The translations under genes and the position numbers were made by a program. Source: Sinomonas atrocyanea (lineage in GTDB: Bacteria > Actinomycetota > Actinomycetes > Actinomycetales > Micrococcaceae). From it: a stretch of 64,000 nucleotides of DNA. Of the stretch, positions 1-15,565 are shown one piece after another. Below the pieces are notes generated by a model. The model was not told the origin of the DNA and ran no database searches. It saw only the letters and a list, made by a program, of their open reading frames with translations. Each line of letters begins with the position of its first letter. Positions within the stretch are counted from its first letter, which is position 1. The stretch is from positions 1 to 64,000 of the forward strand of contig NZ_JAUSTE010000008.1 of the NCBI RefSeq assembly GCF_030812675.1, written 5' to 3'.

Positions 1-126
1 ATCGCGTGTAACGGTGTTGTGGCGGGTTTGTTGGGGGGGCCCCCCCCCCCCCCCCGCGTCCTGGTAACTTCCGGCGGGGGGGGGGCGCCCCCCCCCCCCC
101 GCCCCCCCCCCCTGCACCGCTCTGAG
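1..126. repeat. G/C homopolymer tracts flanking the displaced putA tail
   Basis: The sequence shows G7 (33-39) directly followed by C16 (40-55), then G10 (76-85), the dinucleotide CG, C13 (88-100), one G and C11 (102-112). Read on the minus strand this lies just after the stop codon of the displaced putA tail, and the G10/C13 pair could fold as a GC hairpin acting as a terminator. Homopolymers of this length are also typical sequencing or assembly errors, so exact lengths should not be trusted. No gene is seen here. Confidence 0.6.
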
Positions 127-168
127 TCAGAGCTCCACGGTCATTGACGTCGGGTTCGGGTTCCCGAA
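127..168 (-). pseudogene. putA: Stranded native 3' end of putA
   Basis: Read on the minus strand, 174 down to 127 encodes YRFGNPNPTSMTVEL followed by TGA. The intact PutA encoded at 11781-15476 ends HRFGNPNPTLMTVTL followed by TAA. Direction and order fit a putA gene split by an insertion: the body lies to the right and this original end lies to the left. The stretch has no start codon or promoter of its own. The GC-rich codons and TGA stop match the host better than the TAA-ended tail now attached to putA. That 127-168 is the host-derived part is inference from the att geometry. Confidence 0.85.
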
Positions 169-175
169 GCGGTAC
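136..175. other. attL of the integrated element
   Basis: This 40-bp stretch matches 11790-11829 at 33 of 40 positions. Positions 152-168 are identical to 11806-11822 over 17 bp. Inside the core, TTCGGG and CCCGAA form a perfect dyad around a central TT (161-162). Serine integrases cut around a non-palindromic central dinucleotide, so TT is the likely crossover. The serine integrase gene begins 30 bp to the right, the usual position for an attL. Confidence 0.8.
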
Positions 176-204
176 TAGAGACACACATGGCATAGGGTGC
201 TGTC

Positions 205-1806
205 ATGGCTACAGATCCTTCGAAGCTCGCGTTCATCTACACACGAGTGAGTCAGGACCGAGAGGGCGGCGGCCTGGCCGTGTCCCGCCAGCTCGAAGAC
301 TGTGAACGTCTGGCTCGGGATCGCGGCCTGACTGTGGTGGACCACTTCTCGGACAACGACGTTAGCGCTTATACGGGCAAGCCCCGGCCGAAATACCGGG
401 CCATGCTGGCCCACCTGTCCGACGTGCGGTCTGTGATCGTCTGGCACACCGATCGACTGCACCGGGACCCCACTGAGCTAGAGGAATGGATCGTGGCCAC
501 GGGCGGTGACACCGCCGCCAACGTGGCAACGCTCACGGTGCAGGCCGGAGACCTCGACTTGAACACTGCTGACGGGCGCTTGCGCGCCCGTATTAGCGGT
601 GCGGTTGCCCGCCACGAATCGGAGCGCAAGTCTGAGCGCGTTCGGCGCAAGATCGCCGACAAGGTGGGGCGAGGGGAATGGCTCGGGGGATCGGTGCCGT
701 TTGGGTGGGATGCAGTTGGGAGCGAGCTGGTGCTCAACGAGGAAGAAGCCAGCGTCGTAAGAGACTTCTCGATACGCGTCATCCAAGGTTCATCGCTCGG
801 GTCACTTGCGCGCGAGCTGCAGGAGAGTGGACGTCCGGCCCGGAAGCCCCGCAAGGACGGCACACCGAGCAAGAGGATTGGACGGTGGACTCCCGAAAGA
901 GTGAAGGAGATGCTCCTTAGGGCGCGAAATGCGGGCCTAGTCGAACTTAGGAACAAGACCACCGGTGAGATGGAAGTAGTTGGCACCACCAAGGCGCCGG
1001 CAATCGTGAGTGAAACGCAGTGGCGCGCCGTGGTCCGCAAGCTCACTGATCCCTCACGGCGGGTTCACACGAAGACGAACCGGCCCATCTACCTTCTCGG
1101 TGGCATCGGGCGCTGCAACTGTGGCGCACCCCTCCGGAGCGCGTCGGCTGCAAATGGGGGTCGGATCTACAAGTGTTCCCTTTATGGCACCGAGCGTGCG
1201 GCCACAGGGCCGCACACGAGTCGTAGCCAGAAGCCATTAGACGAGATGGTCCGTGAGTGCGCTGTCGCTGTTCTCAGCAACCAAGCGTTCATTGAGAGTC
1301 TGTCCGCCCCTGGTACCAGTGCTGAACGTCAATTGCTCAACGACGAACTCGCTGAGGTAGAGGCGCAGGAACAGGACGTGCTGGCTACTGTCGGCAAGTC
1401 TCGTATTGCTGGCCCCGTGCTGATCAAGCTAGCGGAAGAACGCGAACGCATCGAGCAGGCGCTCGCAGACCTCGAAGAACGTGGCGGGCGAGCCGCCACC
1501 GCGGATGCCATGATGGCGATGGCGGCTGTCGGGCAGTTCGATATGTTCCTCCACTTCGATGCCGTCGGTACCTGGGACTCATGGCCGATCGATCGAAAAC
1601 GAGACTGGATCAGGCAGAATCTGCGGGTCACAATCCGCCCAGAGATTGAGAAGGACCCCCGAAAGTTCTGCCGTGAGTCCGTCGAGGTAACGCTTTGGGA
1701 CGGCTCTCCCATCCCAACGCAGCACGCGCTCCCGCCTACGGGCGATGGAGCCGAGCCGGGTGGGCCGCCCGTGGGCGGCCGCCATCGTCGCCGCGGCTTG
1801 GGCTGA
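205..1806 (+). CDS. Large serine integrase
   Basis: This 533-aa site-specific recombinase has an N-terminal resolvase domain (about residues 8-155) with the catalytic Ser16 in YTRVS, a recombinase domain (about 160-280), a zinc-ribbon-like part with Cys304, Cys306 and Cys324, and a charged, probably coiled-coil stretch (about 350-430). The family integrates and excises DNA at attP/attB sites without host factors, and excision needs a directionality factor. It lies 30 bp from attL, so it is the obvious integrase for the island. The ATG at 205 gives a start close to the resolvase domain; no strong Shine-Dalgarno sequence precedes it. A perfect 8-bp inverted repeat with a 2-nt loop (1763-1780) sits inside the 3' end of the gene. 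No excisionase-like partner was recognised. Confidence 0.93.
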   Translation: MATDPSKLAFIYTRVSQDREGGGLAVSRQLEDCERLARDRGLTVVDHFSDNDVSAYTGKPRPKYRAMLAHLSDVRSVIVWHTDRLHRDPTELEEWIVATGGDTAANVATLTVQAGDLDLNTADGRLRARISGAVARHESERKSERVRRKIADKVGRGEWLGGSVPFGWDAVGSELVLNEEEASVVRDFSIRVIQGSSLGSLARELQESGRPARKPRKDGTPSKRIGRWTPERVKEMLLRARNAGLVELRNKTTGEMEVVGTTKAPAIVSETQWRAVVRKLTDPSRRVHTKTNRPIYLLGGIGRCNCGAPLRSASAANGGRIYKCSLYGTERAATGPHTSRSQKPLDEMVRECAVAVLSNQAFIESLSAPGTSAERQLLNDELAEVEAQEQDVLATVGKSRIAGPVLIKLAEERERIEQALADLEERGGRAATADAMMAMAAVGQFDMFLHFDAVGTWDSWPIDRKRDWIRQNLRVTIRPEIEKDPRKFCRESVEVTLWDGSPIPTQHALPPTGDGAEPGGPPVGGRHRRRGLG

Positions 1807-2216
1807 CGCGGCCCTCATGACGTAGGAAGCAGAGGCTGGGGAATGAGGACCCGCCCGGGCTAGGCAAACTGTCGGACGCGCCGCCGGAGGAGCTAGACAG
1901 GTCGTGTCGTGCCTCTCCCTGTCCGGTGGCATCCGCCGGTAGACTGCTCCTCAGCACGCTGGCCCCCTAGGGCCAGCGACAACTTAATACTTCACACACA
2001 ACAGAGCATCAGCCCCTACGTGGGCCGGTGCTCTGTTGCGTCTCGGGCCAGATCAAGAGAGGAGTTGAAGCCCGCGACAACGGCGACGGCCTGCCGGCCT
2101 CTGCCGAACCGAGAGTCGCAGCAGCTATTGGGCCACAGTGCCCGTCGCGCTCGGCTCCCGCCTCACACACCGGCCATCGACGGCCCTAGTCCACTAAGGA
2201 AGGACCACCTCTGACC
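1807..2216. other. Intergenic region with two strong hairpins
   Basis: This 410-bp gap between the integrase and the HNH gene shows no convincing coding sequence. It holds two stem-loops. One is an 8-bp stem with a 6-nt loop (1957-1964 paired with 1971-1978). The other is a 10-bp stem (1999-2008 with 2029-2038) with an internal GCCC/GGGC pair. Neither has a clear T-tract, so they may be terminators for the integrase or a structured leader of the HNH gene. A purine-rich ribosome site (AAGGAAGG, about 2197-2204) precedes the HNH start. Confidence 0.55.
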
Positions 2217-2954
2217 ATGCCCCCTCTGCTAGAAGCCGATCAAGCATCAGCTACCCCGCCACGGCAGAATGACCCCTCTGAGAGCAGCGCGCCATGGGGC
2301 GCAGTTCCCGCCCCAGCACTGGGCGAGACAGCCTCTCAAGAAACAATTCCACTGTTGCGTTCGGGACACATTCCCTGCGCCATCGAGGGATGCTCGTCGC
2401 CCCGCCACGCGGGCACGCCTGAGGGTCCGCTTTGCAACACCCACTACACGGCCTGGCGTCGAGCGCAGCCCAACAGGTGCTCCGTGCCCCGGTGCTCGGG
2501 GACCGCCCAGTTCGGGAAGGTCTGCCGACGACACGAGCCCACCCTCATCATGCAGGACAGGAAGCTTGCTGAGACCCTCGAACGGTTCTCGGCCAGCATC
2601 GGTGCCTACGCGGGCCACTGGCTGTGGACCGGCGCGATGAACGATGACTTGTACCCGACATTCACCGCGAACGGCCTCAAGTGGTACGCCCATCGGTGGG
2701 CGTACGCCTACTTCATAGGGCCCCACAGGGCCCGTCAGGAGCTCGATCACGTTTGCGGGATTGAACTGTGCGTACGGCCTGACCATCTGTTCCCTGTGGG
2801 CCACAAGGAGAACATCCGGCTCCGTGACCGTCGCTTGTACCTGCCGGATGCTTGGATCACGCCTAGGAACTATCGCCGTGTCTGGACACCCCGGGCAGAC
2901 GAGTTTGCGCTACAGCACAACCTGCCAGCTCCGCGCTTTGGTCTCGCTAGCTGA
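2217..2954 (+). CDS. HNH endonuclease with two N-terminal zinc knuckles
   Basis: This 245-aa protein resembles HNH endonucleases of actinophages and mobile elements. Residues 135-205 hold the HNH core: a WLWTG-type start, then LDHVCGIELCVRPDH (His178, His190) and HKENI (His196, Asn199). Ahead of it are two C-x4-C...C-x2-H modules (Cys54/59/73-His76 and Cys88/93/103-His106) that probably bind zinc and DNA. The ATG at 2217 follows an AAGGAAGG ribosome site. It is co-oriented with the integrase and ends before a strong hairpin. It could be a homing-type nuclease or a nicking enzyme of the element; its target cannot be told from sequence. Confidence 0.85.
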   Translation: MPPLLEADQASATPPRQNDPSESSAPWGAVPAPALGETASQETIPLLRSGHIPCAIEGCSSPRHAGTPEGPLCNTHYTAWRRAQPNRCSVPRCSGTAQFGKVCRRHEPTLIMQDRKLAETLERFSASIGAYAGHWLWTGAMNDDLYPTFTANGLKWYAHRWAYAYFIGPHRARQELDHVCGIELCVRPDHLFPVGHKENIRLRDRRLYLPDAWITPRNYRRVWTPRADEFALQHNLPAPRFGLAS

Positions 2955-2983
2955 CTTGATCAGAGCGTTAGGGGAAGACGCTC

Positions 2984-3024
2984 GGTAGCGAGCTGGAGGG
3001 GCGCACTCCCTCCAGTTCGCTACC
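2984..3024. terminator. Bidirectional hairpin terminator
   Basis: A 17-bp stem (2984-3000 with 3008-3024, one G-U pair) with a 7-nt loop lies between the convergent HNH gene and restriction-modification gene. Position and stem strength fit a terminator serving both strands. Confidence 0.8.
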
Positions 3025-3047
3025 AAGCTGGCAGGACAATTCAACTG

Positions 3048-6000
3048 CTACACGACGAGAGAGGACTCTTCTAGAGCATCGCGAAGATCGTCCACGCTTT
3101 CTCCCTCAACGGTTGGGATAACATGCTCGATCGACCGCTTGAGTTCGACGGCCACGCCATTGGACGCTAGAGCCTGATCGATCAAGTTGCGCGCCTGTTG
3201 AAATGTCTTAGCGCCAGTCAAGTCCACACCTCGGGCTACATTCTCAGCGCGTTCAGCAAGAGTCGCAATCTCTTGATGATGCCGACTAGCCGAGTCCCAG
3301 GCGGGAAACGGAACCTGGAACACATACTTATCGAAGTCCCTCTCACCGAAGAGCCCGAGAGTCTGTAGCGGCTTTACCCGTTCTAGAAGCACCTCGCTAT
3401 TCAAGATGGCTTCCAAGTACCTGGCTTCACCGATTGTGCTCGCGGACGCCCAGTAGAGCTTGTGCTCAACGATAGCCCGCGAGTCCTTTGTGATCGCGGC
3501 AGCTATCCGATTGCCTGAACTCGTATAGCAGACTCTGTACGTGGACTCTGTGACCAACTGTGCGCTCAGTTGCCCGTGGTAATCAAGGCGCTCGCGAAGC
3601 GGCCCAGCATTCGGATTTGAACGATTGCTCTCCCACGCAGTTTCCGCGGCCGACCACCAAGGGTCCAAGCCGGGATCGGCTTCCACTTCAGATCCCGAAA
3701 GTAGCTTCCTGTTCTTGATTGGAAGGACACACTCCAACGGCTCGGTCATCCTGTATGGCAGGACAGTTTCACCGAGGAGGAGCGGGAAGATGAAGTCTTC
3801 CGCCACGCTTGCCTCTATCGAGGGCAGGAACTTCCATGGCTTTTTATCCTGATTCGACCGTCGCGAAATCACCGACGTGCGGCCAGCGCCGGCCCCGAGA
3901 GGGCCGGGATCGGTTCGCAGCACGCAGACAAGAACACGGGGAAGAATCAGTGCGCCTTGTCGGAATCGCTTGGCATACGGAGAAACCGGCAGCGGATTAT
4001 TCGGATCGTGCTGTACCACGACACCCGCGGACTCAGTCACACGGCCTTGCACCGCATCCCATGTCTGTGCATGATTAGAGAATTTTCCAGTCAGATACTT
4101 GGTCGCGGAGGGCAGTGCCTCCGCACCATTCCTGGCCTTCTGCCCGAAGACGACGCAGGACACCATCGGGAACCCCGTTTTGATCTTGACAAGTTCCCAT
4201 GCTTCTCGAAATTGTGCGGTCAAACCTGCGACGGTCTGGCTGTTCGACTGCCAATTCCCCGTGCGGAACCCGTGATGCGGCTTCCTAGTGAGCGTCCCGT
4301 GCGGCATGATGAAAGCGAAGCTCCCGCCTACCTTCAAGTATAGTTCGATCGCACGGCAGACGAATAGTGTCGAGAGGTCGCGGCCGCTCGCTCCGAGGGG
4401 GCCTGACAGCAGATTCCTTTCACGCGCTAGGCGCTTGTATCGATCCTGCATGGAGCCAGTCATTTTTGAATAGCGGAGCCATGGAGGGTTCCCCACGAGG
4501 AGATCGACCCGGTTTTCGGGAAGAGACAGCCACAGTGGCCTGATTAGGTTTCGGACGTAGTACCCCCAAATGTGATCCCGTCCATTGAGGTGCAGCTGGC
4601 GAAGCGTAGAAAACGTCGCGCGCAACATCTCGCGGTCTTCTTCAGGGACGTCGTACCTAATGAGAATAGGATCAATGAGGTCGCGAACCTTACTGGAAGG
4701 CCCCGCTTTCATCTCACGCGCCCGCCTTCTAGGGTCCATCAGCTTGGAAGGCGCGAGCTCATTCTCCGCTGAACTAAGAACCTTGTCAGCCATCTCCGAC
4801 ACGATTGCGTCAAATCGTTGGGCGTCGTAAAGGATCGACTTCGGAAAAGCGAGATTGTCGTCGAACAGAAGTCCGCCGCCGGCGGACAAGAGATCTTCAC
4901 CTGTAGTCTCGACTGTGATGGCCTCTTCAGACGACAGCAGGTTCGTTTGTTGCTCCCACTGGAGAGAGTCCCCGAGATACACGGGTATGGACACGGGTCC
5001 GCGCTTGGGGTGGCGGAGTCTCTCTGTTCCAATTGCTAGGAGATAGGTGACTCGCGCGAGCGTGACGGCCACCGGGTGTATGTCCATGCCGTATACCGAG
5101 CGCACTACCCCGTCAACGGCCTCGGGCACGCCCAAGCCGCTCGACTCAGCAGCATCAAGGTAATGACGGACAGCATGGAACAAAAACGTTCCCGAGCCGC
5201 AAGAGGCATCCAATACTTTTACTCGAAGGGGGTCGGGGTACTCATCTGCGAGTATCTTGTAGGCCAGCCAGTCGGGGGTGTAGTACTCGCCTAGGCTCTC
5301 GCGCGTGGCCTGACTGATGACGCTCTCGTAGAGGTGCTTGAGAACGTCGTGCTCGACTTGGTCCCATCGGAATTTTGCCACACGCGAGGCGAGGGACCGC
5401 ACGAACTGCTCGCCGCCGTCAACCTCTAAAACCCAGTCGAAGAAGTCTGCCTCCACGACGCCGCGGATCTGGGCATGGCCAAACCGAGTTCCGTCTGCCA
5501 GATGCTGCGGGCTCACCGCATTAGGACCGCTCAGGTCGAAGCCCAGCACGGCGTGAGCGATCGATTCGGCCGTCAGCACAAGGAGCGTGTGGTCAAGGAA
5601 CAGATGCTCGGCATCTTCGAACCCAGACCCGAATGCAGTACGAAGCAACTTCGCCCAGAGTTCGCGTTTGAGTGTCACCGTAGGGTTCGTTCGGTTCGCG
5701 TCCAAGAGCACCTTGAGCGAGGCATGGTCAGCGTGATGCCCTGGGGAATTCGAACCGAGACGCGCCTCGATTGCCTGTGGTGTCGGCTTAACCTGGGCGA
5801 CCGTGGCAAGCACAGCGCCGAGCCACTCACGGAGCTTCTCAGCGTCGTCGGAACCGCGAATCAGCAGCGGCTCTGCGGCTTGAACGATGCCTCCCGCCGC
5901 TTGCGCGTCGGGGACATACAAGATCCACTCGTACCCGTCCGTAAGGACGCCAAGATAGCGAGCCCCAGTCTGCTGGCAGCGGGTCTGAACATACTGGCCA

Positions 6001-6278
6001 AGCTGTTCTTCAGCGGTGGCGAGGACATTGCCCGCTCTGAGATTCTTCTTGACCTCAATCACCGTTGTGCCCGACTCGACATCGATACGACGCCGGCTGC
6101 CGTCTCCGAGCTGAGCCTCCATCGCAACCGTTTGCACTTCGTCGGCGATGTCGTTTGCGTCCACGTTAAGTCCGGCCGCCAAGATGAATGCACGGACGTC
6201 TGCCTGTAGCGTCGCTTCGGACCTAGCCGGGTCCCGTCGAGCCATCCGTGCGGTCAGATCTTCAGGAGTCTCTGGCAA
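3048..6278 (-). CDS. Type IIG-like restriction-modification enzyme (nuclease plus adenine methylase)
   Basis: This 1076-aa single-chain protein has an N-terminal PD-(D/E)xK-like nuclease motif (Asp66 in RRRID, then E75-V-K77). A methyltransferase region follows: EYYTP (331-335), the SAM-binding DASCGSGTF (357-365) and the catalytic NPPW (597-600) of gamma-type N6-adenine methylases. The C-terminal 400 residues would hold target recognition. This order is that of Eco57I/type IIG enzymes, which cut invading DNA and methylate their own sites with one polypeptide. A TTG at 6278 is chosen because a GGGGGAG ribosome site lies just upstream; an in-frame ATG at 6245 is the alternative and loses 11 residues. 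A 416-aa gene lies 161 bp upstream on the same strand. The specificity is unknown, and a BREX or DISARM methylase is less likely given the nuclease motif and the lack of partners. Confidence 0.87.
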   Translation of the reverse strand: MPETPEDLTARMARRDPARSEATLQADVRAFILAAGLNVDANDIADEVQTVAMEAQLGDGSRRRIDVESGTTVIEVKKNLRAGNVLATAEEQLGQYVQTRCQQTGARYLGVLTDGYEWILYVPDAQAAGGIVQAAEPLLIRGSDDAEKLREWLGAVLATVAQVKPTPQAIEARLGSNSPGHHADHASLKVLLDANRTNPTVTLKRELWAKLLRTAFGSGFEDAEHLFLDHTLLVLTAESIAHAVLGFDLSGPNAVSPQHLADGTRFGHAQIRGVVEADFFDWVLEVDGGEQFVRSLASRVAKFRWDQVEHDVLKHLYESVISQATRESLGEYYTPDWLAYKILADEYPDPLRVKVLDASCGSGTFLFHAVRHYLDAAESSGLGVPEAVDGVVRSVYGMDIHPVAVTLARVTYLLAIGTERLRHPKRGPVSIPVYLGDSLQWEQQTNLLSSEEAITVETTGEDLLSAGGGLLFDDNLAFPKSILYDAQRFDAIVSEMADKVLSSAENELAPSKLMDPRRRAREMKAGPSSKVRDLIDPILIRYDVPEEDREMLRATFSTLRQLHLNGRDHIWGYYVRNLIRPLWLSLPENRVDLLVGNPPWLRYSKMTGSMQDRYKRLARERNLLSGPLGASGRDLSTLFVCRAIELYLKVGGSFAFIMPHGTLTRKPHHGFRTGNWQSNSQTVAGLTAQFREAWELVKIKTGFPMVSCVVFGQKARNGAEALPSATKYLTGKFSNHAQTWDAVQGRVTESAGVVVQHDPNNPLPVSPYAKRFRQGALILPRVLVCVLRTDPGPLGAGAGRTSVISRRSNQDKKPWKFLPSIEASVAEDFIFPLLLGETVLPYRMTEPLECVLPIKNRKLLSGSEVEADPGLDPWWSAAETAWESNRSNPNAGPLRERLDYHGQLSAQLVTESTYRVCYTSSGNRIAAAITKDSRAIVEHKLYWASASTIGEARYLEAILNSEVLLERVKPLQTLGLFGERDFDKYVFQVPFPAWDSASRHHQEIATLAERAENVARGVDLTGAKTFQQARNLIDQALASNGVAVELKRSIEHVIPTVEGESVDDLRDALEESSLVV

Positions 6279-6439
6279 CTCTCCCCCTCTTTGGTATTGA
6301 GAATGACACTACCGGTGACTTCTGCTTAGCCAGGACACCGCGGTCGCATGTCTCTAGGCCCAACCCCCAGTCGGCGCGACGGTTGGCTGATACCGAGTTC
6401 GGACGCCCGAGTTGCCGTCGGCACTCGGACCACTGCCGG

Positions 6440-7690
6440 CTACCTCAGGCGATCATTGGCGGCTAGAAGGTAGTACAGGTCGTGGGTGCGAGCAGTCCGC
6501 CGGCCCTCCGCAGCGTCACGGACAGCCTTGGCGGCGGAATGAACAACTGACCCTCCAGCCGCGGCAATCGCTGATCCGGACAACGCGCTGAGTTCCGCTA
6601 TTGATCCAATTCCGAAAACTAGGGCGGCTCCGGCAGCACCTGTTGTGATTGCCTTGACGTCGGTCACGATGCTTAGCGCAGCATCCTTTGCGATCCGCGT
6701 TGCAGAGAGGTCCCGGCGCAGAGATTCGAGCGTTGGCTGGACCTCGTCGCGCCACAGATCATCCACTTCGGCTCGGAGCGCCGGGTCCAGAGGCCCAGAG
6801 ACCAGTTTCGCTGAGAGATCAGCTATTCCCTTGCGATAGCTGATGAGGGGTACAGCGAGTTCTGATCGAGTTTCCAATATCGCCTCGATTGGCGCCTCTG
6901 GAAACGCTGGCAACCGCTCGACCAGTCCAATGCCTGTCGCTGCGCGTACGGCATGCTTCTCGGTCAGAGGATGAAGCTGGGCTTGTTCTTCTCGAAGCAT
7001 GGCGTTCACGATGCCTGCGATCTGATCATCAAACATCAGGTGACTGCGGGGGTCACCCAATAGGCGCTTCAGAGTCTCGGCGTACTGATCCACAGTGAGA
7101 CCCAAATCAGCGCTGATCTCGAAAGCATCGGCGGATAACGTGAGCAACCCGGCCTCGGCCGCGATGGCAAGGTCCGGCGCACCGGCCTGCTCCCACATCT
7201 TGCCGACTACGGCGTTGAAGCCATGGTCGCCGCCAAGAAAGCTGCTCACGAAACCGTTTACGGTCTCGCGGATCTGGCGGCTCCGCTCGGCCCCGAGAAG
7301 CCGCCGCCTCGCTTCTCGGTTGAGGTTGTTCAACTGTCTAAGAGCGTTGAGGGTCGCACGAAGATCAGCTATGTCACCGGTGAAGCCGAAGTGCCGGAGA
7401 GTTGCCTCGTCCAGTGCCCCCATCATTTCGAACACGAAGTCGGGACCTTGAGCTGCGCCAGCTGCAAAGGACGCGATCATAAAAGCACCTGGAGAGATGA
7501 GCTCTACCTCGTCGGCGTATAGGAGAGCAGACCGTACTAGTCGAGCATCTTCCTCAACCGACACTCCCCCTGGCCCCTCCTTGGGGCCAGTCGCTATCAC
7601 GATCTTCAGACCGCCGCTTGCCTGGATGCGGACAGCAGCCTTGGGTCGTTTGACGCCCTGACGGCGTGGACGCTGGCGAGATGCTGGCAC
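6440..7690 (-). CDS. Unrecognised 416-aa protein upstream of the restriction enzyme
   Basis: I do not recognise a family with confidence. The first 25 residues are very basic. Residues 28-35 (LKIVIATG) look like a beta-strand and loop; the middle is mostly helical. Residues 265-300 contain an ILETRSELAVPLISYRKG-type amphipathic stretch. Residues 338-388 are rich in Gly, Ala, Val and Ile and could be a membrane-inserting hairpin. The C-terminus ends HDLYYLLAANDRLR. The start is GTG at 7690 with an AGGGAG ribosome site about 9 nt upstream. It is followed on the same strand, after 161 bp, by the type IIG enzyme, so co-transcription is plausible. The context suggests a defence role, possibly a membrane effector or accessory factor, but this is inference. 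Confidence 0.7.
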   Translation of the reverse strand: MPASRQRPRRQGVKRPKAAVRIQASGGLKIVIATGPKEGPGGVSVEEDARLVRSALLYADEVELISPGAFMIASFAAGAAQGPDFVFEMMGALDEATLRHFGFTGDIADLRATLNALRQLNNLNREARRRLLGAERSRQIRETVNGFVSSFLGGDHGFNAVVGKMWEQAGAPDLAIAAEAGLLTLSADAFEISADLGLTVDQYAETLKRLLGDPRSHLMFDDQIAGIVNAMLREEQAQLHPLTEKHAVRAATGIGLVERLPAFPEAPIEAILETRSELAVPLISYRKGIADLSAKLVSGPLDPALRAEVDDLWRDEVQPTLESLRRDLSATRIAKDAALSIVTDVKAITTGAAGAALVFGIGSIAELSALSGSAIAAAGGSVVHSAAKAVRDAAEGRRTARTHDLYYLLAANDRLR

Positions 7691-8233
7691 CCCAAGTCTC
7701 CCTAATTCAACGATCGTGCGGTCGTACTTTCTAAGGCTAAACGCGGGCGGCTCCGATGGACCGCAGCACCCTGCAGTGATCTGTACAGTTCGGCTGCATT
7801 CGTTGTCTATCCCGTACAGGCTTGGACGTGCGTTTCACCACCGGGTCGGAGAATCGTGTTATGGGGTCCTCCCCCTGGGGGGGCATGTCGGCTACTGCCC
7901 AACCGAGCACGGGGGTCCGACGGCGAGCATTGAAGCGAGCGCGCAGGCGCCATCCTCGCGGACTCACACCGACCAAACCCAGCCGAGCACGTCGGTGAGC
8001 CAGCCAAGCCCGCAGAACGGTACACAGCAAGCCGAGGAACTGAGGGCGACGGCGAGGGTGGAGAGCTGGAGCGCCCGAATTTCTCAGCTCTCACCTACCT
8101 ATCAAAAAACCAAGGCTTGCTGACTCGGACCGCGACAGGCCTCCGGGCCTGTCAGATTTGCGAGAGCGAATGAGTAATTGATAGGTTCTCAATAACCCCT
8201 CAAACATGATGGGTAAACGCGAGAGGACCATCA
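7691..8233. promoter_or_regulatory. Divergent intergenic region with hairpin and resolvase promoter
   Basis: This 543-bp region separates two divergent genes. A perfect 8-bp stem with a TCCG tetraloop lies at 8134-8153. An ATTGA-N7-TCAAT inverted repeat starts near 8176, overlapping a TTGATA that could be a -35 box, with AAACAT about 18 nt downstream as a -10. Inverted repeats next to a resolvase gene are typical of res subsites, though no full three-subsite res was demonstrated. A 135-codon open frame (7716-8123) crosses the region but looks non-coding. Confidence 0.45.
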
Positions 8234-8842
8234 ATGGCCACGTACGGATACGCCCGAGTCAGCACGGCCGACCAGAACCCCCAGCTCCAGATCGATGCAC
8301 TCGAGGCTCACGGCGTGGACGTGGACAACCCTAAGCGGCTCTACACGGAGCATGTCAGCGGCACCGTGAAGGCCAGCGACCGCGAACGCCTGGCGGCGCT
8401 CCTCGACCGCGTAGAGGCAGGGGACAAGATCATTGTCTGGAAGTTCGACCGACTGGGCCGCAACACCCTTGACGTGCTCTCAGTGCTCCAGACCCTCAAG
8501 GATCGGGGCGTCTATCTCGAATCCGTGACGGACAAGATCGACACCTCATCGCCCATGGGTGAGGCCATGTTCACAATCCTTGCCGCGTTCGCCCAGCTTG
8601 AGCGTGACCTCATCGCTGAGCGCACGACGGCGGGGCTGCAGGCTGCCCGCGAACAGGGCAAGCTTGGCGGCCGTCCCAAGGTCACCACGAGAGACCCCCG
8701 TGTCGCTCAGGCTGTCGCGTACCGCAAGCGCGGTTTCACCGTCGAAGAGACCGCCCACCAGATGAGCCAGGCGAACGGCAAGAGCATCAGCATCGCGACC
8801 GTCTATCGACTCCTGAGGCTGGGTCGCGATGCGACCCAGTAG
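8234..8842 (+). CDS. Small serine recombinase (resolvase/invertase family)
   Basis: This 202-aa protein has the standard layout of Tn3 resolvases and DNA invertases: a catalytic domain starting GYARVST with nucleophile Ser10, the motif FDRLGRNTLDV near residues 75-85, the long E-helix region (FAQLERDLIAERT), the hinge GGRPK and a C-terminal helix-turn-helix. The ATG at 8234 has a GAGAGGA ribosome site. It is full length. It lies mid-element, away from the att sites, so it is unlikely to be the integrase. It may resolve cointegrates, invert a segment or be a remnant of a transposon. No transposase was seen beside it. Confidence 0.92.
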   Translation: MATYGYARVSTADQNPQLQIDALEAHGVDVDNPKRLYTEHVSGTVKASDRERLAALLDRVEAGDKIIVWKFDRLGRNTLDVLSVLQTLKDRGVYLESVTDKIDTSSPMGEAMFTILAAFAQLERDLIAERTTAGLQAAREQGKLGGRPKVTTRDPRVAQAVAYRKRGFTVEETAHQMSQANGKSISIATVYRLLRLGRDATQ

Positions 8843-8893
8843 GCTTGGGTCTCGTTCAACAGACCCGCGCCGGGGGTTGAGCGTTCAAGCAGG

Positions 8894-8932
8894 AGGGGCC
8901 CCGGATCATCACCTGATGACTCCGGGGCCCCT
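8894..8932 (+). terminator. Terminator after the resolvase gene
   Basis: A 12-bp perfect stem (8894-8905 with 8921-8932) encloses a further 5-bp TCATC/GATGA stem. It begins about 50 bp after the resolvase stop and is followed by a pyrimidine-rich stretch. The arm contains the self-complementary GGGGCCCC. Confidence 0.8.
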
Positions 8933-9105
8933 TCCGTTCCTGCGTTGTATGCGCTCAGCCGCCCGTACGGGCCCCTTCTAGGGCCCAGATCAGGCTTCCA
9001 GTCATCAGGGCTAAGTAGCGCCACCTGGGCTCTCTATGGGCCTCGCAGCGGCTCTCTGCGTGCGGCTGCCGTTTGCGGCTCGTGGCGTCGTCAGCGGGAT
9101 GCTAT

Positions 9106-9546
9106 TCAAAGCAGATTGGCGGCGTTGAATCGACGGCTGAACTCCGAGCGGGAACTGCCCCATGTGGAACCCATGAGCACGATTGGCACCTTGTATTCGG
9201 CCAAGAACTCATACACCGACTTTGCATCCATGCTCAACATCTCACCCATCTGGGTGACCGTCTCAAGGTCGCGATTCGGCGCTTCCATATGGGCGCCGCC
9301 TTGCGGGGCGCCTATCACGAGCTCCTCTTCGAGGGCCGGCAGATAGCTGGCAAGGAGCCGAAGGGCCTCGTCCCGGCCGATCCTCATTCGAAATGCAAAG
9401 TCGAATATTACGTCGGCAACGTCCTCCGAAACACTCATTATTGTGCGTCGAGGTGCAGCTGGACGCAAGTTCTTTTCTAGATTCATGGGCGCCAAGGTAG
9501 CACACATCTCGGCGGTCATGGAAAGATGTCCATTGTCTATTGGCAT
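9106..9546 (-). CDS. Small protein of unknown function
   Basis: The open frame encodes up to 146 residues and I do not recognise it firmly. The conserved-looking part runs from about residue 37 (MSVSEDVADVIFDF) and is mainly helical and acidic. The stretch MDAKSVYEFLAEYKVPIVL near the C-terminus resembles the helix-turn-helix end of small UPF0175-like antitoxins, but this is a weak impression. Candidate starts are ATG at 9546, 9486 (MNLEKN) and 9438 (MSVSED); none has a strong ribosome site. It is divergent from the Abi_C gene across an AT-rich region, so it could be the regulator or antitoxin partner of that gene. That pairing is inference. Confidence 0.5.
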   Translation of the reverse strand: MPIDNGHLSMTAEMCATLAPMNLEKNLRPAAPRRTIMSVSEDVADVIFDFAFRMRIGRDEALRLLASYLPALEEELVIGAPQGGAHMEAPNRDLETVTQMGEMLSMDAKSVYEFLAEYKVPIVLMGSTWGSSRSEFSRRFNAANLL

Positions 9547-9863
9547 ATGTTGCGAGTCGTGAAATATATATATGAATCTACAATTGAGAAATCTCTGATT
9601 CGCGCGGTTGGCTTTCCGGTCGCCGGCCGAAGGGGGAGGGGGATCGGCATGGAGGTTTGGCTCGCTCGGCTCAGGGCTTCAAACCGACCATCCCGAGCTC
9701 GCGCGGGCGCGACTCGGGCCCTCGCTCTGTCCCATAGGCTTCCTGCTGCCGAAGAGCCCGACGGTCATCCCGAGGTTCAGGGTGGTGAGCGGCTGCTCCC
9801 ACATCGAGACCGACTGGTGCGGCGCGCCGCGCCGCCCGGCTTCCACCGCGAGATGATCGTCAG
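9547..9863. promoter_or_regulatory. AT-rich divergent promoter region and long leader
   Basis: Positions 9540-9600 contain an alternating AT run (near 9567-9578), by far the most AT-rich stretch noticed in the window. It probably holds promoters for the small gene to the left and the Abi_C gene to the right. From about 9600 to 9863 composition returns to GC-rich; this part shows no trustworthy gene and would be a leader of about 260 nt. A short frame ends in a TGA overlapping the GTG start of the Abi_C gene (9864-9867). Confidence 0.4.
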
Positions 9864-10703
9864 GTGACGACACAGCCGATCAGCCAGGAAATTGGAGCCG
9901 CGCTCGGGCGCTTCTTCTACTCGGGCGAGGGGCCTTCGCACTCAAAGCTGACTCGGGTGTTCATGGCTGGGGGATACGGGGACGACGATCCTTACGTGCC
10001 TGCTGCAAATGGTCGCCCGGCGAGCCCCAATAAGGAGCAGCGGGTGCTTCAAGTCTTCGGGGCAGCCGTCCGGAGGCCGGGTGGGGCGAGGGCTCTCGTG
10101 GAGGCGATGCTGACCGAGCTTCGGGTGCACGGGTCCTTCAGCCCCACAAGCTCTAAGTACAACCCTGAAGCCACAACCACTGCACAAAGGGCCTTCTCGC
10201 GGAAGGGGTGGCATCTAGACGAGGACGGACTTCTCCAGCCCATCGCTGGCATCGATGTCACTACGGGAGGGCGGCAGGCTCTTGATGAGCAACTTGAGAG
10301 ACTACGTCGCAACAGTGAAGATCCGGGCGCGCTTCTAGGCACATCGAAGGATCTACTTGAAGCTGTCGCGAAGTTCGTCCTCAAGGAGATGGGCATGCCC
10401 CTCACCGGCAAAGAGAGCTTCAACCAGCTGTGGTACCTCGCACGAGAGCGACTTAATCTCTTGCCCCAGAACGTAGACACAAACGTCCCAGGTCATCTCT
10501 CAATCCGTGCGGTGCTCCAAGCGGCATGGGGCATCGCGGATCAGGTAAATGAACTTCGCAAGTTTCAAGGAACCGGGCACGGTCGGACGCTGCCTACTGG
10601 CGTAACCCGAGAACTGGCACTCTTGATCGTCCGCGAAGCGTGCAGCGTGGCAGAGTTTGTGCTGACCTCGCTCGACCGTCAGCTAGGTCGGCGCGCCGAG
10701 TAG
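9864..10703 (+). CDS. Abi_C-domain (HEPN-type) abortive infection protein
   Basis: This 279-aa protein ends in a region (about 210-275) matching the abortive-infection C-terminal (Abi_C) pattern: a helix with VNELRKFQGTGHGR followed by a hydrophobic helix (LALLIVREACSVAEFVL). It contains R232-x6-H239, the RNA-cleaving motif of HEPN ribonucleases. Known members sense phage infection and cleave RNA to stop growth. The N-terminal 200 residues are unassigned and probably sense the trigger or bind a partner. The start is GTG at 9864 and is weakly supported by a ribosome site. It faces the next gene tail to tail. No antitoxin is certain; the small divergent gene at 9106-9546 is the nearest candidate. 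Confidence 0.8.
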   Translation: MTTQPISQEIGAALGRFFYSGEGPSHSKLTRVFMAGGYGDDDPYVPAANGRPASPNKEQRVLQVFGAAVRRPGGARALVEAMLTELRVHGSFSPTSSKYNPEATTTAQRAFSRKGWHLDEDGLLQPIAGIDVTTGGRQALDEQLERLRRNSEDPGALLGTSKDLLEAVAKFVLKEMGMPLTGKESFNQLWYLARERLNLLPQNVDTNVPGHLSIRAVLQAAWGIADQVNELRKFQGTGHGRTLPTGVTRELALLIVREACSVAEFVLTSLDRQLGRRAE

Positions 10704-10827
10704 TCCGCCACTCCACCATTCCCTTTAGAGAAGCACGAGCAAAACGGTGCGGCCCCCAGGCTGGGGCCCACCTGAGAGAAGCTGTCGGGGGCTGCCGCCC
10801 CGGCAAGCGTTCGAAGCTTCGAGAGCA
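10704..10827. terminator. Convergent gap with hairpin
   Basis: This 124-bp gap separates two convergent genes. It contains a GC hairpin (GGCCCCCA...TGGGGCC, about 10751-10769). It also holds AGAAGCTGTC (10774-10783), which recurs near the right att site (11697-11706), so the stretch may be part of a short direct repeat of the element. Confidence 0.45.
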
Positions 10828-11484
10828 TCAGGGCATGTTTCTTTCCATCTCACCGAGCGCGTCCCTGACGCCTTCCATGACTGAATCTACGTAGTCCTCC
10901 ACAGCGCCGAGTATGTCGAAGGCCTGTTTCAACATGCGGACGAGGTTGGGGAAGTCGATGCGTTCCTCTTGGGAAGGGTGATGGTCGCTTACGTACCGGA
11001 AGGTTGTGCCGCTCTCGTCCGCTTCGTGGAGTAGCCCGATGACTCGAACGACTTGCTCCGGAAACTCGGCTCGAAGATCGAAGCGCTCGTCCAGTTCATT
11101 GAAATGTGACCGGGCTTCTGCGAGCAGTGCGTCAAGATTGTGCCGATGCTTCAATCGCAATCTCTTGTTGACGTTCTCCCTGTCCAGGAAAGGATCGTTG
11201 GCGTCGGCCAGTTCGCGGCGAAGCCTCGTCCAATCACGGATTATTGACTTCAGTTCAAGCTCGTAAGCCTGTCTATACAGGGTTAGGAACGGCAGCAGGA
11301 TCATGTCGTCCGCTGGCTGGCCCTTGAACGTGCCGGCCAAACGTTCGGCAGCTTCCGCGTAAAAGGCCGCTAGATGCCGGTCGGTCTCGTTCGATGCCTT
11401 GACAACTAGCCGCCTGTAGCTGGTCTCAGGCACCGCCTCAAGTAGCTGCCAGCTTTGCCGACTGTCAGAGTTCTCGCTGGTCAT
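10828..11484 (-). CDS. Helical 218-aa protein, possibly HEPN-like
   Basis: No family is recognised with certainty. The protein is predicted mostly alpha-helical and soluble. The segment FLTLYRQAYELELKSIIRD (67-85), the RHNLDALL stretch (114-121) and TFRYVSD (161-167) resemble uncharacterised HEPN-like proteins of defence islands. There is no textbook R-x4-6-H in the expected place, so nuclease activity is uncertain. The open frame extends upstream to 11736, but ATG 11484 is preferred because an AGAGAG ribosome site precedes it and the upstream translation is low-complexity. It is the last gene before attR. Confidence 0.65.
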   Translation of the reverse strand: MTSENSDSRQSWQLLEAVPETSYRRLVVKASNETDRHLAAFYAEAAERLAGTFKGQPADDMILLPFLTLYRQAYELELKSIIRDWTRLRRELADANDPFLDRENVNKRLRLKHRHNLDALLAEARSHFNELDERFDLRAEFPEQVVRVIGLLHEADESGTTFRYVSDHHPSQEERIDFPNLVRMLKQAFDILGAVEDYVDSVMEGVRDALGEMERNMP

Positions 11485-11780
11485 CCCGCTCTCTTTCGCA
11501 TATTGCCTTACATGTGCGGTCAGTCTCCCATGCCCCACCTCTTGATTGCTTCCAGTCAATGATCTGGTCGACCTGAGGGGGTGGGAGTATCCCCGGCGGT
11601 GAGGAGCCCGCCGGGGCCGCCCCTGAGACTGGCGCCCGAGGGTCCCTATCGGTGAATCGCGAAAGACGCCGCGGCTGCCTTGAGCAGGCCAGACTGAGAA
11701 GCTGTCTGAGGGCTTAGGCAGCAAGGCCATCGGCATGGAGCCGGTGGCCTTGCTGCGACCTTAGAAGGCGGCACAGGGCG
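11485..11780. other. Right end of the element: hairpins and putA terminator
   Basis: The region upstream of the helical gene holds a 9-bp stem (CCCCGGCGG with CCGCCGGGG, about 11593-11618) and, nearer attR, the hairpin listed as the putA terminator. A TTGACT (minus strand, near 11553) could be the -35 of the helical gene. No coding sequence is supported. Confidence 0.5.
11718..11756 (-). terminator. Element-borne terminator for reconstituted putA
   Basis: A 16-bp stem with one G-U pair (11718-11733 with 11741-11756) and a 7-nt loop lies about 25 bp beyond the putA stop in the direction of putA transcription. It lies inside the element, so the element supplies both the last codons and the terminator. 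Confidence 0.75.
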
Positions 11781-14700
11781 TTACAGCGTCACTGTCATCA
11801 ATGTGGGGTTCGGGTTCCCGAAACGGTGCGCCGTCACCGAGACGGCCTGCTCGTGCAGGAACGGCAGGAGCTCCACCCGGCCGGCCGAGACGACCGGGTG
11901 CGCGTACACCGCCACGTCCGGGGTGCCGCCCACGGCCTCGGCGAGGGCCCGCGCGGAGGAGGCCGCGTCGTCGTCCGTGCCGGCGATCAGCCGCACGCGT
12001 CCCGCCCCGAGCGCCGCCGCGCGCCCCAGCCAGGAGGCGGAGTCCTCGACCGCCACCGTCACGCCGTGGCGGCGCAGGACGTCCGAGGCCGAGCCGGGAA
12101 GGCCGACGGCGGTGCTCACCGTCACGGCAGACCCGGCCACGAGCCCGGCCCCCGCAACCCGCAGCAGCTCGGCGACTCCGTGTCCAGAGGTCGGCGCCTC
12201 GAACCGGACCGTCACCGGGACGGGGCGGTAGCGGAACACGTTGCGCTCGCAGGCCAGGGCCGAGACGTCCTTCGAGACGCCGAACTCCTCGGCCCATGCC
12301 GCGGCGTCCGAGCCGAGGGCGGCAGCCAGCCACGCGGCGTCGTCCGCGGGGAGCGCGCCCTCGGCGGACGCGAGAAGGTCTGCGGCCGCCCGGCCGAGGC
12401 CCCGCTCCGCCGCTGGCGCGGTCCCGCCGGGTGCGTCCGCCCAGGAGCCGAGCCCCACGAGGTAGTTGGGACCGCCCGCCTTGGCGCCGGCGCCGACGGC
12501 GGACTTCTTCCAGCCGCCGAACGGCTGCCGCTGGACGATCGCACCGGTGATGCCGCGGTTGACGTACAGGTTGCCGGCGGCGATGTGCTCGGCCCAGTAC
12601 GCGATCTCGCCGGCGTCGAGGGAATGGAGCCCGGAGGTCAGGCCGTAGTCCACCCGGTTGACGAGCTCCACGGCCTCCTCGAGCGTCCGCGCGGTCATGA
12701 CCCCGAGGACCGGCCCGAAGTACTCGGTCAGGTGGTACTCGCTGCCGGGGCGCACGCCCGCGCGCACCCCGGGGCTCCAGAGTTTGCCGGAGTCATCGAG
12801 CTGGCGCGGCTCGAGCACCCAGTGCTCGCCGGGGCCGAGCTCGGTGAGGCCGCGGCGCAGCTTGTCTCCCGGCGGCTCGACCACGGGCCCCATCTGGCTC
12901 CGCGGGTCCCACGGGTAGCCCACATGGAGCGACTCGACCGCGTCGACGAGCTGGTTGCGGAACCGCCGGGACCGGGCGACCGAGCCCACGAGGACCACGA
13001 GCGAGGCCGCCGAGCACTTCTGGCCGGCGTGCCCGAACGCGGAATAGGCCACGTCCTTCGCAGCGAGGTCCAGGTCCGCGCTCGGGGTCACGATGATGGC
13101 GTTCTTGCCGCTGGTCTCGGCGAGCAGGGGGAGGTCGGGCCGGAACGAGCGGAACAGCTGCGCCGTCTCGTACCCGCCCGTGAGGATCACGCGGTCCACC
13201 TCGGGGTGCGCGATGAGGCGCTGGCCGAGCCCGCGCTCGGGCAGCTGCACGAGCTGGAGCACCTCGCGCCCGACCCCTGTCTCCGCGCGCGTCGCCTCGA
13301 GCGCCTCCCACAGCGCCGCGACCATCACCGCGCCGCTGCGGCGCGCCTGCTGGGCGGGCTTGATCACCACGCCGGAGCCGGCAGCCAGCGCCGCCAGCGT
13401 GGACCCCGCGGGGATCGCCACGGGGAAGTTCCACGGCGGCGTCACGACGGTGAGGCGGCTGGGCACGAACCGGGCACCCTCCACGGCGTCGAGCTCGCGG
13501 GCGAGGGTCGCGTAGTAGTGGGCGAAGTCGACGGCCTCGGACACCTCGGGGTCGCCCTGGTCGAGGGTCTTGCCCGTCTCCGAGGCCATGGCCTCGAGGA
13601 GGTCCGCGCGGTGCCGCTCGAGCGAACGGCCCATCTCGTCCAGCACCGCGGCGCGCTGCGCGCCCGTGAGCGCTCCCCAGACTCCGCCGGCTGACGCCGC
13701 CGCGCGGACGACGCCGTCGAGCTCGCCCTCCGTGCCGACCGTCGCCTTCTCGACCGTGTCCATGCCGATTTGGCTATATTCCGATCTGGCGATAATCGCT
13801 CGGCCCCACGCCCGATTGGCGGGAAGGTCCGGATCGGTGTCCGGGGTGTTGGCGAACCCGGCTCCCGCCCTCCATCTGGGAGTCACCTCCTGGGAGTCAG
13901 CTGAGGTGACCTCCAGAAGCTGACTCCCAGAAGGGGCGGGAAGGTCGGTGGTGCGGTCCTGGATCCGGTTCGGGGCCGGCATGGCCGGGGTACCGTCCGG
14001 ACCGACGAAGGGAGCGGAGCCGAGGGCCGCGAGGGAGGCGAGGAAGCGTTCCTTCTCGCGCTCGAAGAGGGCAGCGCCGCGGGGGTCGTCCGAGCCCAGT
14101 TCGAAGACCGCGGACATGAAGTTGTCCTGGCTCGCGCCCTCCTCGAGGCGGCGGATCAGGTAGGCGATCGCGACGTCGAACTCGTCCGGGTGAACCACGG
14201 GCGTGTACAGCAGCAGGTGGCCCACGTCGGCCAGGACGGCCTGCGCCTGCGCGGACGCCATGCCGAGGAGCATCTCGAACTCGATGAGCCCGGAGCCTTC
14301 GCTTACCCCGGTGTCCACCCCGCGGGCCTTCGCGAGCAGCCACGCGAGGGCGATGTCGAACAGGTTGTGGCCGGCGACGCCCACGCGCACGTTGGCCAGA
14401 CGCTCGGGCGTGAGCGCGTAGTCGAGGATCGCCTTGTAGGACGTGTCCGTCTCCCGCTTGGAGCCCCACGTCGCCGCCGGCCAGCCGTGGATCTCCGCGT
14501 CCACATGCTCCATCGGCAGGTTGGCCCCCTTGACCACGCGGACCTTGATCGGCGCGCCGCCGCCGGCCACGCGCTGCGCGGCCCATTCCTGGAGGTGGAC
14601 CATGGCGCCGAGCGCGTCCGGCAGGTAGGCCTGCAGGACGATCCCGGCCTCGAGCCCCCGGAACTCCTCGAGCTCGAGCAGCCGCGTGAACACGGCGATC

Positions 14701-15476
14701 GTCAGGTCGAGGTCCTTGTACTCCTCCATGTCGAGGTTGATGAACTTGCGGGTGGGGGCCGAGGCCGCCAGGCGGTACAGCGGCGTGAGCGACTCGACGA
14801 TGTGCTCCACGGCCTCCTCGAAGGCCCAGTGGTTGTGCGGTGCCACGGTCGCGGAGACCTTGATCGAGGCGTAGTCCACGTCGTCCCGGGCGAGCAGCCG
14901 GCGCGTGCCCTCGAGCCGCCGGGCTGCTTCGCCGCGGCCGAGGATCGCCTCGCCCAGCAGGTTCATGTTCAGCCGGATCCCGGGCTTGCGGATCTTGGCG
15001 ATGGCGGGGCCCAGCCGGGAGTCCGAGGCATCGACGATCAGGTGGCCCACCATCTCGCGCAGGACCCGCCGGGCCACCGGCACCACCACGCCGGGGGCCG
15101 CCGGGGCGAGCGCGCCGCCCGCGGCAAGCGCCGCCCGCAGCGGCCAGGGGAGGAAGCGGGGGGCCTTGGCCGAAAGCGCCTTGAGGTTCTGCGCGGCGAC
15201 GCCGAGGTCTTCCGGGCGCACCACGCCGTCCACGAATCCCACGGTGAAGGGCAGGCCGTCCTGGTCCTGGAGCACGCCTGCCAGCTGCGCCGCGGCCGCG
15301 TCGACAGGCAGCGCGGCGGCGGCGTCGAGCCAGCTGCGGACCTGCGCGACGGCGTCATCGGCGAGGTCCTGAGGACGGATCGGGTGCGGCGCACCCAGGG
15401 CGCGCGGGCCGGCTGCCGGAGCCGACGGGGCGGGGATGCTGCCCGCGGAGCTCGGGGCGTCGATGTGCGTGGTCAT
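11781..15476 (-). CDS. putA: Bifunctional proline dehydrogenase / P5C dehydrogenase
   Basis: This 1231-aa enzyme oxidises proline to P5C (FAD-dependent PRODH half, roughly residues 100-480) and P5C to glutamate (NAD-dependent aldehyde dehydrogenase half, roughly 560-1130). Visible signatures include the PRODH stretch VRVVKGANLPME and the ALDH catalytic-cysteine motif GHAGQKCSAASLV. ATG 15476 is preferred over an upstream in-frame start at 15536 because family similarity begins after it. It is divergent from a LysR gene that probably controls it. Two oddities: the linker (around residues 515-535) is encoded by an inverted 14-bp repeat element, and the final codons and TAA stop come from an integrated element. 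The protein should still be functional because both parts keep the frame. Confidence 0.95.
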   Translation of the reverse strand: MTTHIDAPSSAGSIPAPSAPAAGPRALGAPHPIRPQDLADDAVAQVRSWLDAAAALPVDAAAAQLAGVLQDQDGLPFTVGFVDGVVRPEDLGVAAQNLKALSAKAPRFLPWPLRAALAAGGALAPAAPGVVVPVARRVLREMVGHLIVDASDSRLGPAIAKIRKPGIRLNMNLLGEAILGRGEAARRLEGTRRLLARDDVDYASIKVSATVAPHNHWAFEEAVEHIVESLTPLYRLAASAPTRKFINLDMEEYKDLDLTIAVFTRLLELEEFRGLEAGIVLQAYLPDALGAMVHLQEWAAQRVAGGGAPIKVRVVKGANLPMEHVDAEIHGWPAATWGSKRETDTSYKAILDYALTPERLANVRVGVAGHNLFDIALAWLLAKARGVDTGVSEGSGLIEFEMLLGMASAQAQAVLADVGHLLLYTPVVHPDEFDVAIAYLIRRLEEGASQDNFMSAVFELGSDDPRGAALFEREKERFLASLAALGSAPFVGPDGTPAMPAPNRIQDRTTDLPAPSGSQLLEVTSADSQEVTPRWRAGAGFANTPDTDPDLPANRAWGRAIIARSEYSQIGMDTVEKATVGTEGELDGVVRAAASAGGVWGALTGAQRAAVLDEMGRSLERHRADLLEAMASETGKTLDQGDPEVSEAVDFAHYYATLARELDAVEGARFVPSRLTVVTPPWNFPVAIPAGSTLAALAAGSGVVIKPAQQARRSGAVMVAALWEALEATRAETGVGREVLQLVQLPERGLGQRLIAHPEVDRVILTGGYETAQLFRSFRPDLPLLAETSGKNAIIVTPSADLDLAAKDVAYSAFGHAGQKCSAASLVVLVGSVARSRRFRNQLVDAVESLHVGYPWDPRSQMGPVVEPPGDKLRRGLTELGPGEHWVLEPRQLDDSGKLWSPGVRAGVRPGSEYHLTEYFGPVLGVMTARTLEEAVELVNRVDYGLTSGLHSLDAGEIAYWAEHIAAGNLYVNRGITGAIVQRQPFGGWKKSAVGAGAKAGGPNYLVGLGSWADAPGGTAPAAERGLGRAAADLLASAEGALPADDAAWLAAALGSDAAAWAEEFGVSKDVSALACERNVFRYRPVPVTVRFEAPTSGHGVAELLRVAGAGLVAGSAVTVSTAVGLPGSASDVLRRHGVTVAVEDSASWLGRAAALGAGRVRLIAGTDDDAASSARALAEAVGGTPDVAVYAHPVVSAGRVELLPFLHEQAVSVTAHRFGNPNPTLMTVTL
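11790..11829. other. putA: attR of the integrated element, inside putA
   Basis: This 40-bp stretch matches attL (136-175) at 33 positions, with a 17-bp identical core at 11806-11822 centred on TT (11815-11816). It encodes the last residues of the present PutA. Sequence to the right is host putA; sequence to the left, including the final codons and TAA stop, is inferred to come from the element's attP. Confidence 0.8.
13872..13933. repeat. In-frame inverted repeat element inside putA
   Basis: Two 14-bp units of the form AGSTGACYYCCAGR run forward at 13904-13931, and two run in the opposite sense at 13873-13900, making a hairpin-like inverted pair. The same unit family occurs three times in tandem at 38555-38596 outside any gene. 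Here it encodes a short Ser/Thr/Glu-rich peptide in the linker between the two PutA enzyme domains. Confidence 0.7.
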
Positions 15477-15565
15477 GAAGCCAGTATGTGACGCACAATA
15501 CGAAAGGAGAAGCGATGATTTCCGATGGATACCCATGAGGAAACCCGATGAATTAAGGAGTCGCC
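15477..15565. promoter_or_regulatory. Divergent putA / LysR promoter region
   Basis: This 89-bp region separates putA and its LysR gene. It contains nested dyads: TTTCC (15519-15523) with GGAAA (15539-15543), and ATGG (15525-15528) with CCAT (15533-15536). LysR regulators usually bind such interrupted dyads in the shared promoter, repressing their own gene and activating the divergent one. AAGGAG (15555-15560) is the ribosome site of the LysR gene. Confidence 0.55.

Follow-up and report, generated by a model that had tools for sequence, protein, structure and literature searches.

That a large serine recombinase (LSR) can insert an element where a protein-coding gene ends is already known in kind: for SCC/ECC elements, which are moved by the CcrAB large serine recombinases, the 3' region of rlmH holds the att site, according to a passage of PMC6222049. 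Among islands of tyrosine integrases, the sequence of the island restores the target tRNA or tmRNA gene (Islander; PMC4383910, in part), and SGI1 lies at the 3' end of a gene, trmE (PMC8409611, in part). Islands in general often rebuild the genes they enter, as a statement in PMC12884075 has it. Here we analysed a 64,000-nucleotide stretch (the window; positions 1 to 64,000 of contig NZ_JAUSTE010000008.1, C8 below, from the 4.12-Mb assembly of genome G000) in which one end of the proline catabolism gene putA is shared with a mobile element. We estimate with a probability of roughly 0.85 that positions 152-11822 are an integrated mobile island that was moved by its own LSR, inserted into putA, exchanged the tail of the gene and was retargeted from cpaF to putA.

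The locus shares with SCC/ECC an LSR, an attB at the 3' end of a protein gene, an island of cargo and terminal direct repeats (PMC6222049, in part). It differs from SCC in its single integrase, which scores far below the NCBIfam cut-offs for CcrB (44.5 vs. 900 bits) and CcrA (36.6 vs. 700 bits), and from SCC/ECC in its target, putA instead of the 3' end of rlmH, and its host, which is probably an actinobacterium. With the tRNA/tmRNA islands it has in common that island sequence restores the target gene, and with SGI1 the site at a gene 3' end. Unlike this element, the tRNA/tmRNA islands and SGI1, whose integrase is of the tyrosine type, use tyrosine integrases. LSRs with gene targets are also recorded in the catalogue of PMC10083194 (in part), the main text of which contains neither "putA" nor "proline" (the supplements were outside the search). 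The original prediction had called the putA 3' end an unusual target for a serine integrase. As far as gene-end insertion goes, the rlmH case takes that novelty away; as far as putA goes the statement stood, since putA was not found as a serine-integrase target in the open-access literature searched, where prior cataloguing, for example in supplements, is possible. Papers pairing putA with attB/integrase or prophage/attL terms concern, by their titles, Salmonella and Corynebacterium, and putA-putP serves as a marker site in a passage of PMC3976249.

The island is bounded by an identical 17-mer, GGGTTCGGGTTCCCGAA, at 152..168 (attL) and 11806..11822 (attR), both on the plus strand and 11,654 bp apart from core to core. 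This pair, predicted from the window, was confirmed and is unique in the whole assembly: at up to 1 mismatch the 4.12 Mb contain only these two sites, and the reversed control pattern has none. At up to 3 mismatches the window still yields just the two cores, both real copies without mismatch, against a mean of 0.32 matches in shuffled windows (two matches in 4 of 100 shuffles). The att core of a serine integrase is a short dyad around a non-palindromic central dinucleotide. Both features are found here, at both ends, as a perfect inner 6-2-6 dyad TTCGGG-TT-CCCGAA with a non-palindromic TT centre (161-162 and 11815-11816). TT is also the core dinucleotide of one multi-target LSR example in part of PMC10083194. 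From the junctions, attB was read as 131-160, TT, 11817-11846 and attP as 11785-11814, TT, 163-192. The deduced attP right half (163..192, plus strand) is the element side of attL, and the attP left half (11785..11814, plus strand), the element side of attR, is the same as the attB left half at 23/30 positions. Over their full length attP and attB agree at 38/62 positions; outside the core the agreement is 14/21 in the left, tail-coding arm and 7/24 in the right arm.

The putA gene (11781..15536, minus strand) encodes a bifunctional proline dehydrogenase/aldehyde dehydrogenase of 1251 aa, with Pro_dh (PF01619) and Aldedh (PF00171) domains in the family profile scan, and ends in an element-borne tail. 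Translated on the minus strand, the left core copy gives YRFGNPNPTSMTVEL*, while HRFGNPNPTLMTVTL*, from the right copy, closes the PutA open reading frame (ORF). The first belongs to the tail PTSMTVEL* (TSMTVEL at 127..151, minus strand, stop 127-129) and the second to PTLMTVTL* (TLMTVTL at 11781..11805, minus strand, stop 11781-11783, from the ORF listing and the tail comparison). An empty site is present in G013, of the same genus, where putA ends in PTAMTVKL*; window positions ~113 to 173, including the left tail, align with the G013 putA tail and the DNA downstream of it. The genuine left flank within the window amounts to only ~40 bases, and the remainder is supplied by contig C16 of the same genome: a 7.8-kb query taken from downstream of the G013 putA matches G000 C16:40038-46731 at 85-86% identity. 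Since both the left flank and C16 match the DNA downstream of the G013 putA, it is the native tail that was displaced into the left copy, and the right copy is element-derived; the element supplied the new PutA tail together with a hairpin after the stop. The earlier proposals that the left copy holds the native tail while the right copy completes PutA, and that a single insertion swapped the one for the other, are thereby borne out. Neither of the two observations named beforehand as refuting them was made: the element-borne ending TLMTVTL is absent from all 14 same-genus relatives (one tail each compared), none of which has a putA ending in LMTVTL, and putA-tail homology does extend into the left flank. 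A core-like site is present at the putA end in 15/15 genus genomes, the own genome included. In putA itself the DNA identity to the window is 90% for G008 and 88% for G013, and different DNA follows the gene in G002, G003 and G008.

The sequence of the new tail suggests that it is adapted to its role. Its closest counterpart is the native tail (16/24 nt), followed by the tails of G013 and G009 (15/24 each). Although 8/24 bases differ between element and native tail, 6/8 codons (stop included) are unchanged in meaning, which occurs with a frequency of 0.005 under 8 random changes; from this codon conservation we infer that the attP left half evolved into a gene tail. The strong hairpin (11718..11756, minus strand), 3' of the new PutA stop, folds at -39.5 kcal/mol on the putA strand (z -5.5) and is a possible replacement terminator, while a terminator scan that requires a T-run gave no terminator-like match there. 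Besides its final codons and its stop, putA has thus perhaps also had its terminator exchanged for one from the element. The HRFGNPNP codons of putA were left in place by the insertion; the solved PutA 5ux5 has the HRFG motif too, at residues 1066-1069 of 1076. Crystal structures show part of the channelling tunnel covered by the PutA C-terminus as by a lid, according to a 2025 paper (PMC12398946, in part), so preserving a proper PutA end likely matters. In our view it is uncommon for a serine integrase element to rebuild the C-terminus of a metabolic enzyme, as this one does, rather than break a gene.

Some further observations concern the putA end and the right end of the element. The last 7-8 PutA residues are hypervariable in the genus, directly after HRFG(N/T)P(N/S)P, and a TPNHLSD-type end is kept in several other genera. 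The right end of the element (11490-11822) gave short matches only (29-78 bases), in 8 of 394 other family genomes. The stretch around the hairpin (11699-11770) is 73-81% like DNA in six relatives (L073, L143 to L147). Three of these matches (L073, L143 and L145) were considered as element ends and rejected, as they lie inside a 580-aa coding frame, which we take to be that of a glyoxylate-carboligase-like enzyme.

The large serine integrase (533 aa; 205..1806, plus strand) starts its ORF 36 bp away from the left core, a spacing similar to that in G008. Two domains were above cut-off, PF00239 (Resolvase, 86.3 bits) and PF07508 (Recombinase, 42.4 bits); the order of a Resolvase followed by a Recombinase domain, and a length of about 450-600 aa, are those by which we recognised LSRs. 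Its best relative in 197 family genomes is the integrase of G008, at 47% identity (43% by BLAST). Public collections gave two Pseudonocardia loci among the genome contigs at 37%, and 409 records in the phage collection and 28 in the plasmid collection, all below 60% identity. Among the public viral contigs, neither an integrase relative nor an exact occurrence of the core pattern was found. A tree of 33 integrases (L065, the same match as L064, and the fragment L054 were dropped) pairs the window integrase with that of G008 with support 100/99, inside an eight-member set with support 97/92. The end branch of the window integrase is long, 1.1 vs. 0.38 for the G008 integrase.

The gene upstream of the near-relative integrases is the cpaF/tadA ATPase gene; a T2SSE domain was found in G008 and G059, and the name cpaF/tadA for this T2SSE-domain gene is our presumption. 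In G008, G059 and G092 it breaks at IALNSG(L/F)P, near the GLP codon site, and all three share the codon of the breakpoint. Both halves of cpaF were located in these genomes, ~12.5, 5.1 and 6.7 kb apart, respectively, with both junctions readable. Direct repeats had been tried as end markers in four relative loci and gave no att pair; reading the cpaF halves gave the junctions. Of the seven clade mates of the window integrase, four, the nearest one of G008 included (L035, L036, L037 and L041), have a clear cpaF neighbour broken near residue 334, and in L037 the protein match to CpaF runs to 355 with the DNA junction at 334. The window integrase thus groups with cpaF-inserted integrases, yet its own insertion is in putA. 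The elements of G008, G059 and G092, from the same bacterial family, have integrases that are among the nearest to that of the window, and resemble this one in an integrase near the left junction and an exchange in codons for GLP or GFP. Unlike this element, they split cpaF in mid-gene and have attP left arms without marked likeness to cpaF: attP and attB agree at 10/27, 6/26 and 7/30 left-arm positions in G008, G059 and G092, and at 5/27, 8/30 and 13/30 right-arm positions. The core is 17 bp long here vs. 8, 6 and 2 bp in the same three genomes.

As a separate observation, 16 of 35 LSR loci have a CpaF match near the integrase (L035 to L039, L041, L042, L048, L050, L052, L055, L057, L059, L060, L062 and L110; the window's own locus, without a match, is counted in the 35). 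The breakpoints include some near residues 128, 334 and 368; that of G213 lies further along the gene, near residue 368. In this bacterial family and order, LSRs seem to have a hot spot in the cpaF/tadA ATPase gene.

We compared the sites of the two targets in register at the central dinucleotide over 62 positions (mean in the window 17.2, sd 3.8). The putA attB agrees at 33/62 with the cpaF site of G000, a score reached at 9 of 127,878 window positions; at 32/62 with the cpaF attB of G008 (32 positions); and at 29/62 with that of G092 (102 positions). Over all long loci, which partly overlap and include some cpaF DNA, 79 of 1,468,690 positions reach 33. The cpaF gene of G000 is intact (open frame of 447 aa), and nothing occupies its GLP site. 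Between the elements the target sites appear to be related, the attP sites having diverged. Taken together, the tree and the site likeness suggest that the target changed from cpaF to a chance look-alike at the end of putA. Newly found are that the integrase is sister to integrases inserted in cpaF and that the two targets are alike. Serine integrases are key genome-writing tools, and to our knowledge the natural change of their targets is poorly understood. The closest relatives of this island break another gene (cpaF), so that here an integrase seems to have changed its target in nature, and a pair of sister integrases (100/99) with different targets and readable junctions offers sets of attB and attP for comparison.

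We propose the following course of events. The displacement of the native tail is evident from the anatomy and the empty site. The LSR would have recombined the attP of a circular element with an attB made of the last codons of putA (on the opposite strand), probably with exchange at the central TT of the dyad. In the event the native last seven codons moved to the far left end, and putA gained seven element-borne codons, a stop and the hairpin; the attP left half would act as a substitute gene tail, PutA keeping a full-length C-terminus. The integrase would come from a clade inserting inside cpaF/tadA, and its shift to putA may be owed to the likeness between the putA end and the cpaF attB, the attP left half evolving into a tail after the change. 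A wider scenario can be offered tentatively, and as a whole we consider it rather unlikely: a cpaF-destroying lineage was naturally retargeted to the putA look-alike, with its attP evolving into a working tail, the putA end is perhaps a recurrent landing site in the genus, the hypervariable last 7-8 residues are partly scars of tail swaps, and an insert found in G003 (below) is a second, degraded occupant.

Several findings weigh against an LSR-driven insertion with a change of target. The integrase is only 43-47% identical to its nearest cpaF-type relative. Among the clade mates, the cpaF match of L039 is weak (41% identity), and L043 and L044 (two of seven) show no cpaF within the DNA examined. 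The putA attB is only weakly like the cpaF attB of G059 (24/62, reached at 5,011 window positions), and the attP sites show little or no likeness between the element and the three relatives, at 22, 23 and 25/62, scores equalled at 23,017, 3,205 and 739 of the 127,878 window positions. G013 is alone in matching the left flank among four relatives aligned downstream of putA. Another putA-inserted integrase was not found in the 15 genus genomes: of 22 Recombinase-domain matches (in 11/15 genomes), the 21 others lie away from putA, as judged by eye from their positions. The circular form and excision are predicted, and no directionality factor was identified.

A rival reading is a pseudo-site accident, with cpaF still the real target, the putA insertion a rare off-target event and the resemblance of the tails due to chance. 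Serine integrases do use pseudo-sites (by the title of PMC5937489), cpaF is where several clade mates are inserted, and its site is resembled by that in putA. The own cpaF of G000, however, is intact and free, and an attP with a putA-like tail (14/21 of the left arm, 6/8 codons) looks adapted to putA, a likeness that has no equal toward cpaF in the three relatives; we therefore consider an accident improbable. We give still less credit to a tandem duplication of, or homologous recombination at, the putA 3' end, with integrase genes arriving later and no site-specific event. Such an origin is brought to mind by G003, in which a distance of 1,673 bp separates two putA-tail cores and a lipoprotein gene, but no integrase, lies between them. 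In the window, however, the two copies cease to be alike at ~CGGT to one side and close to the stop codon to the other, and the distance from integrase start to left core is about that in G008. A reversed polarity, in which PTLMTVTL would be native and PTSMTVEL element-derived, is hardly credible. Little speaks for it beyond the element tail being equally near to the tails of G009 and G013 (15/24 nt), while the native tail matches that of G013 at 20/24 nt and both the left flank and C16 match the region downstream of the G013 putA. Insertion by the LSR with replacement of the tail, and a move from cpaF, is the reading that we prefer.

The G003 locus (L078:4895-6590) was also considered as a second copy of the element and rejected in that sense, as the stretch from the real putA-tail core to the second one, 1,673 bp away, holds a lipoprotein paralogue and no integrase. 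One of its lipoprotein units, beside tail 1, is 97.7% like that of G014, and the other 70%. Beyond the part that they share, the left junction of the insert and the right half of the element attP agree at 10/17 positions (background frequency 0.0015), a likeness that is only suggestive.

The cargo suggests a defence-type integrative island, in which type IIG restriction-modification-like and Abi_C proteins point to phage defence; the island may thus protect its host. Behind the integrase lies an HNH endonuclease-like protein (245 aa; 2217..2954, plus strand; PF13392 and PHROG HNH families), followed by the type IIG restriction-modification-like protein (1076 aa from the listed TTG start; 3048..6278, minus strand) with N6_Mtase and Eco57I matches and a PADLOC match to REase_MTase_IIG at 5.1e-67. 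The Abi_C-domain protein (abortive-infection C-terminal domain, 279 aa; 9864..10703, plus strand) matches PF14355 at 2.6e-14 and AbiJ weakly, at 5.7e-4. No phage structural family (capsid, terminase, tail) was found among the eight element proteins scanned with PHROGs, whose matches were to integrase, invertase, HNH, methylase and unknown function, and the same eight gave no Pfam match to relaxase or conjugation families (oriT was not sought). The cargo (query 1807-11780) was not found in the 14 other genus genomes, apart from matches in the resolvase gene and short pieces. These matches fall in seven genomes, five of them in a small serine resolvase/invertase (202 aa; 8234..8842, plus strand; PF00239, phrog_125), namely a 74% DNA relative in G010 and four short pieces; G002 matches the hairpin and G011 40 bases. 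The remaining frames are a protein of 416 aa (6440..7690, minus strand) and a possible ORF of 146 aa (9106..9546, minus strand; from the ORF listing alone), both without a family match, and a protein of about 220-230 aa (10828..11520, minus strand) with no family above cut-off and an uncertain start codon, a longer frame running to 11736 in the ORF listing.

The window begins at base 1 of C8, and its first ~111 positions (1..111, no strand) are a contig-end artefact, mostly poly-G/C. Similar poly-G/C is present at the end of C16 (46838). A GC-rich strong hairpin downstream of putA in G013, at the place matching the break between C8 and C16, is a plausible cause of the assembly break, and the two contigs are probably adjacent in the genome.

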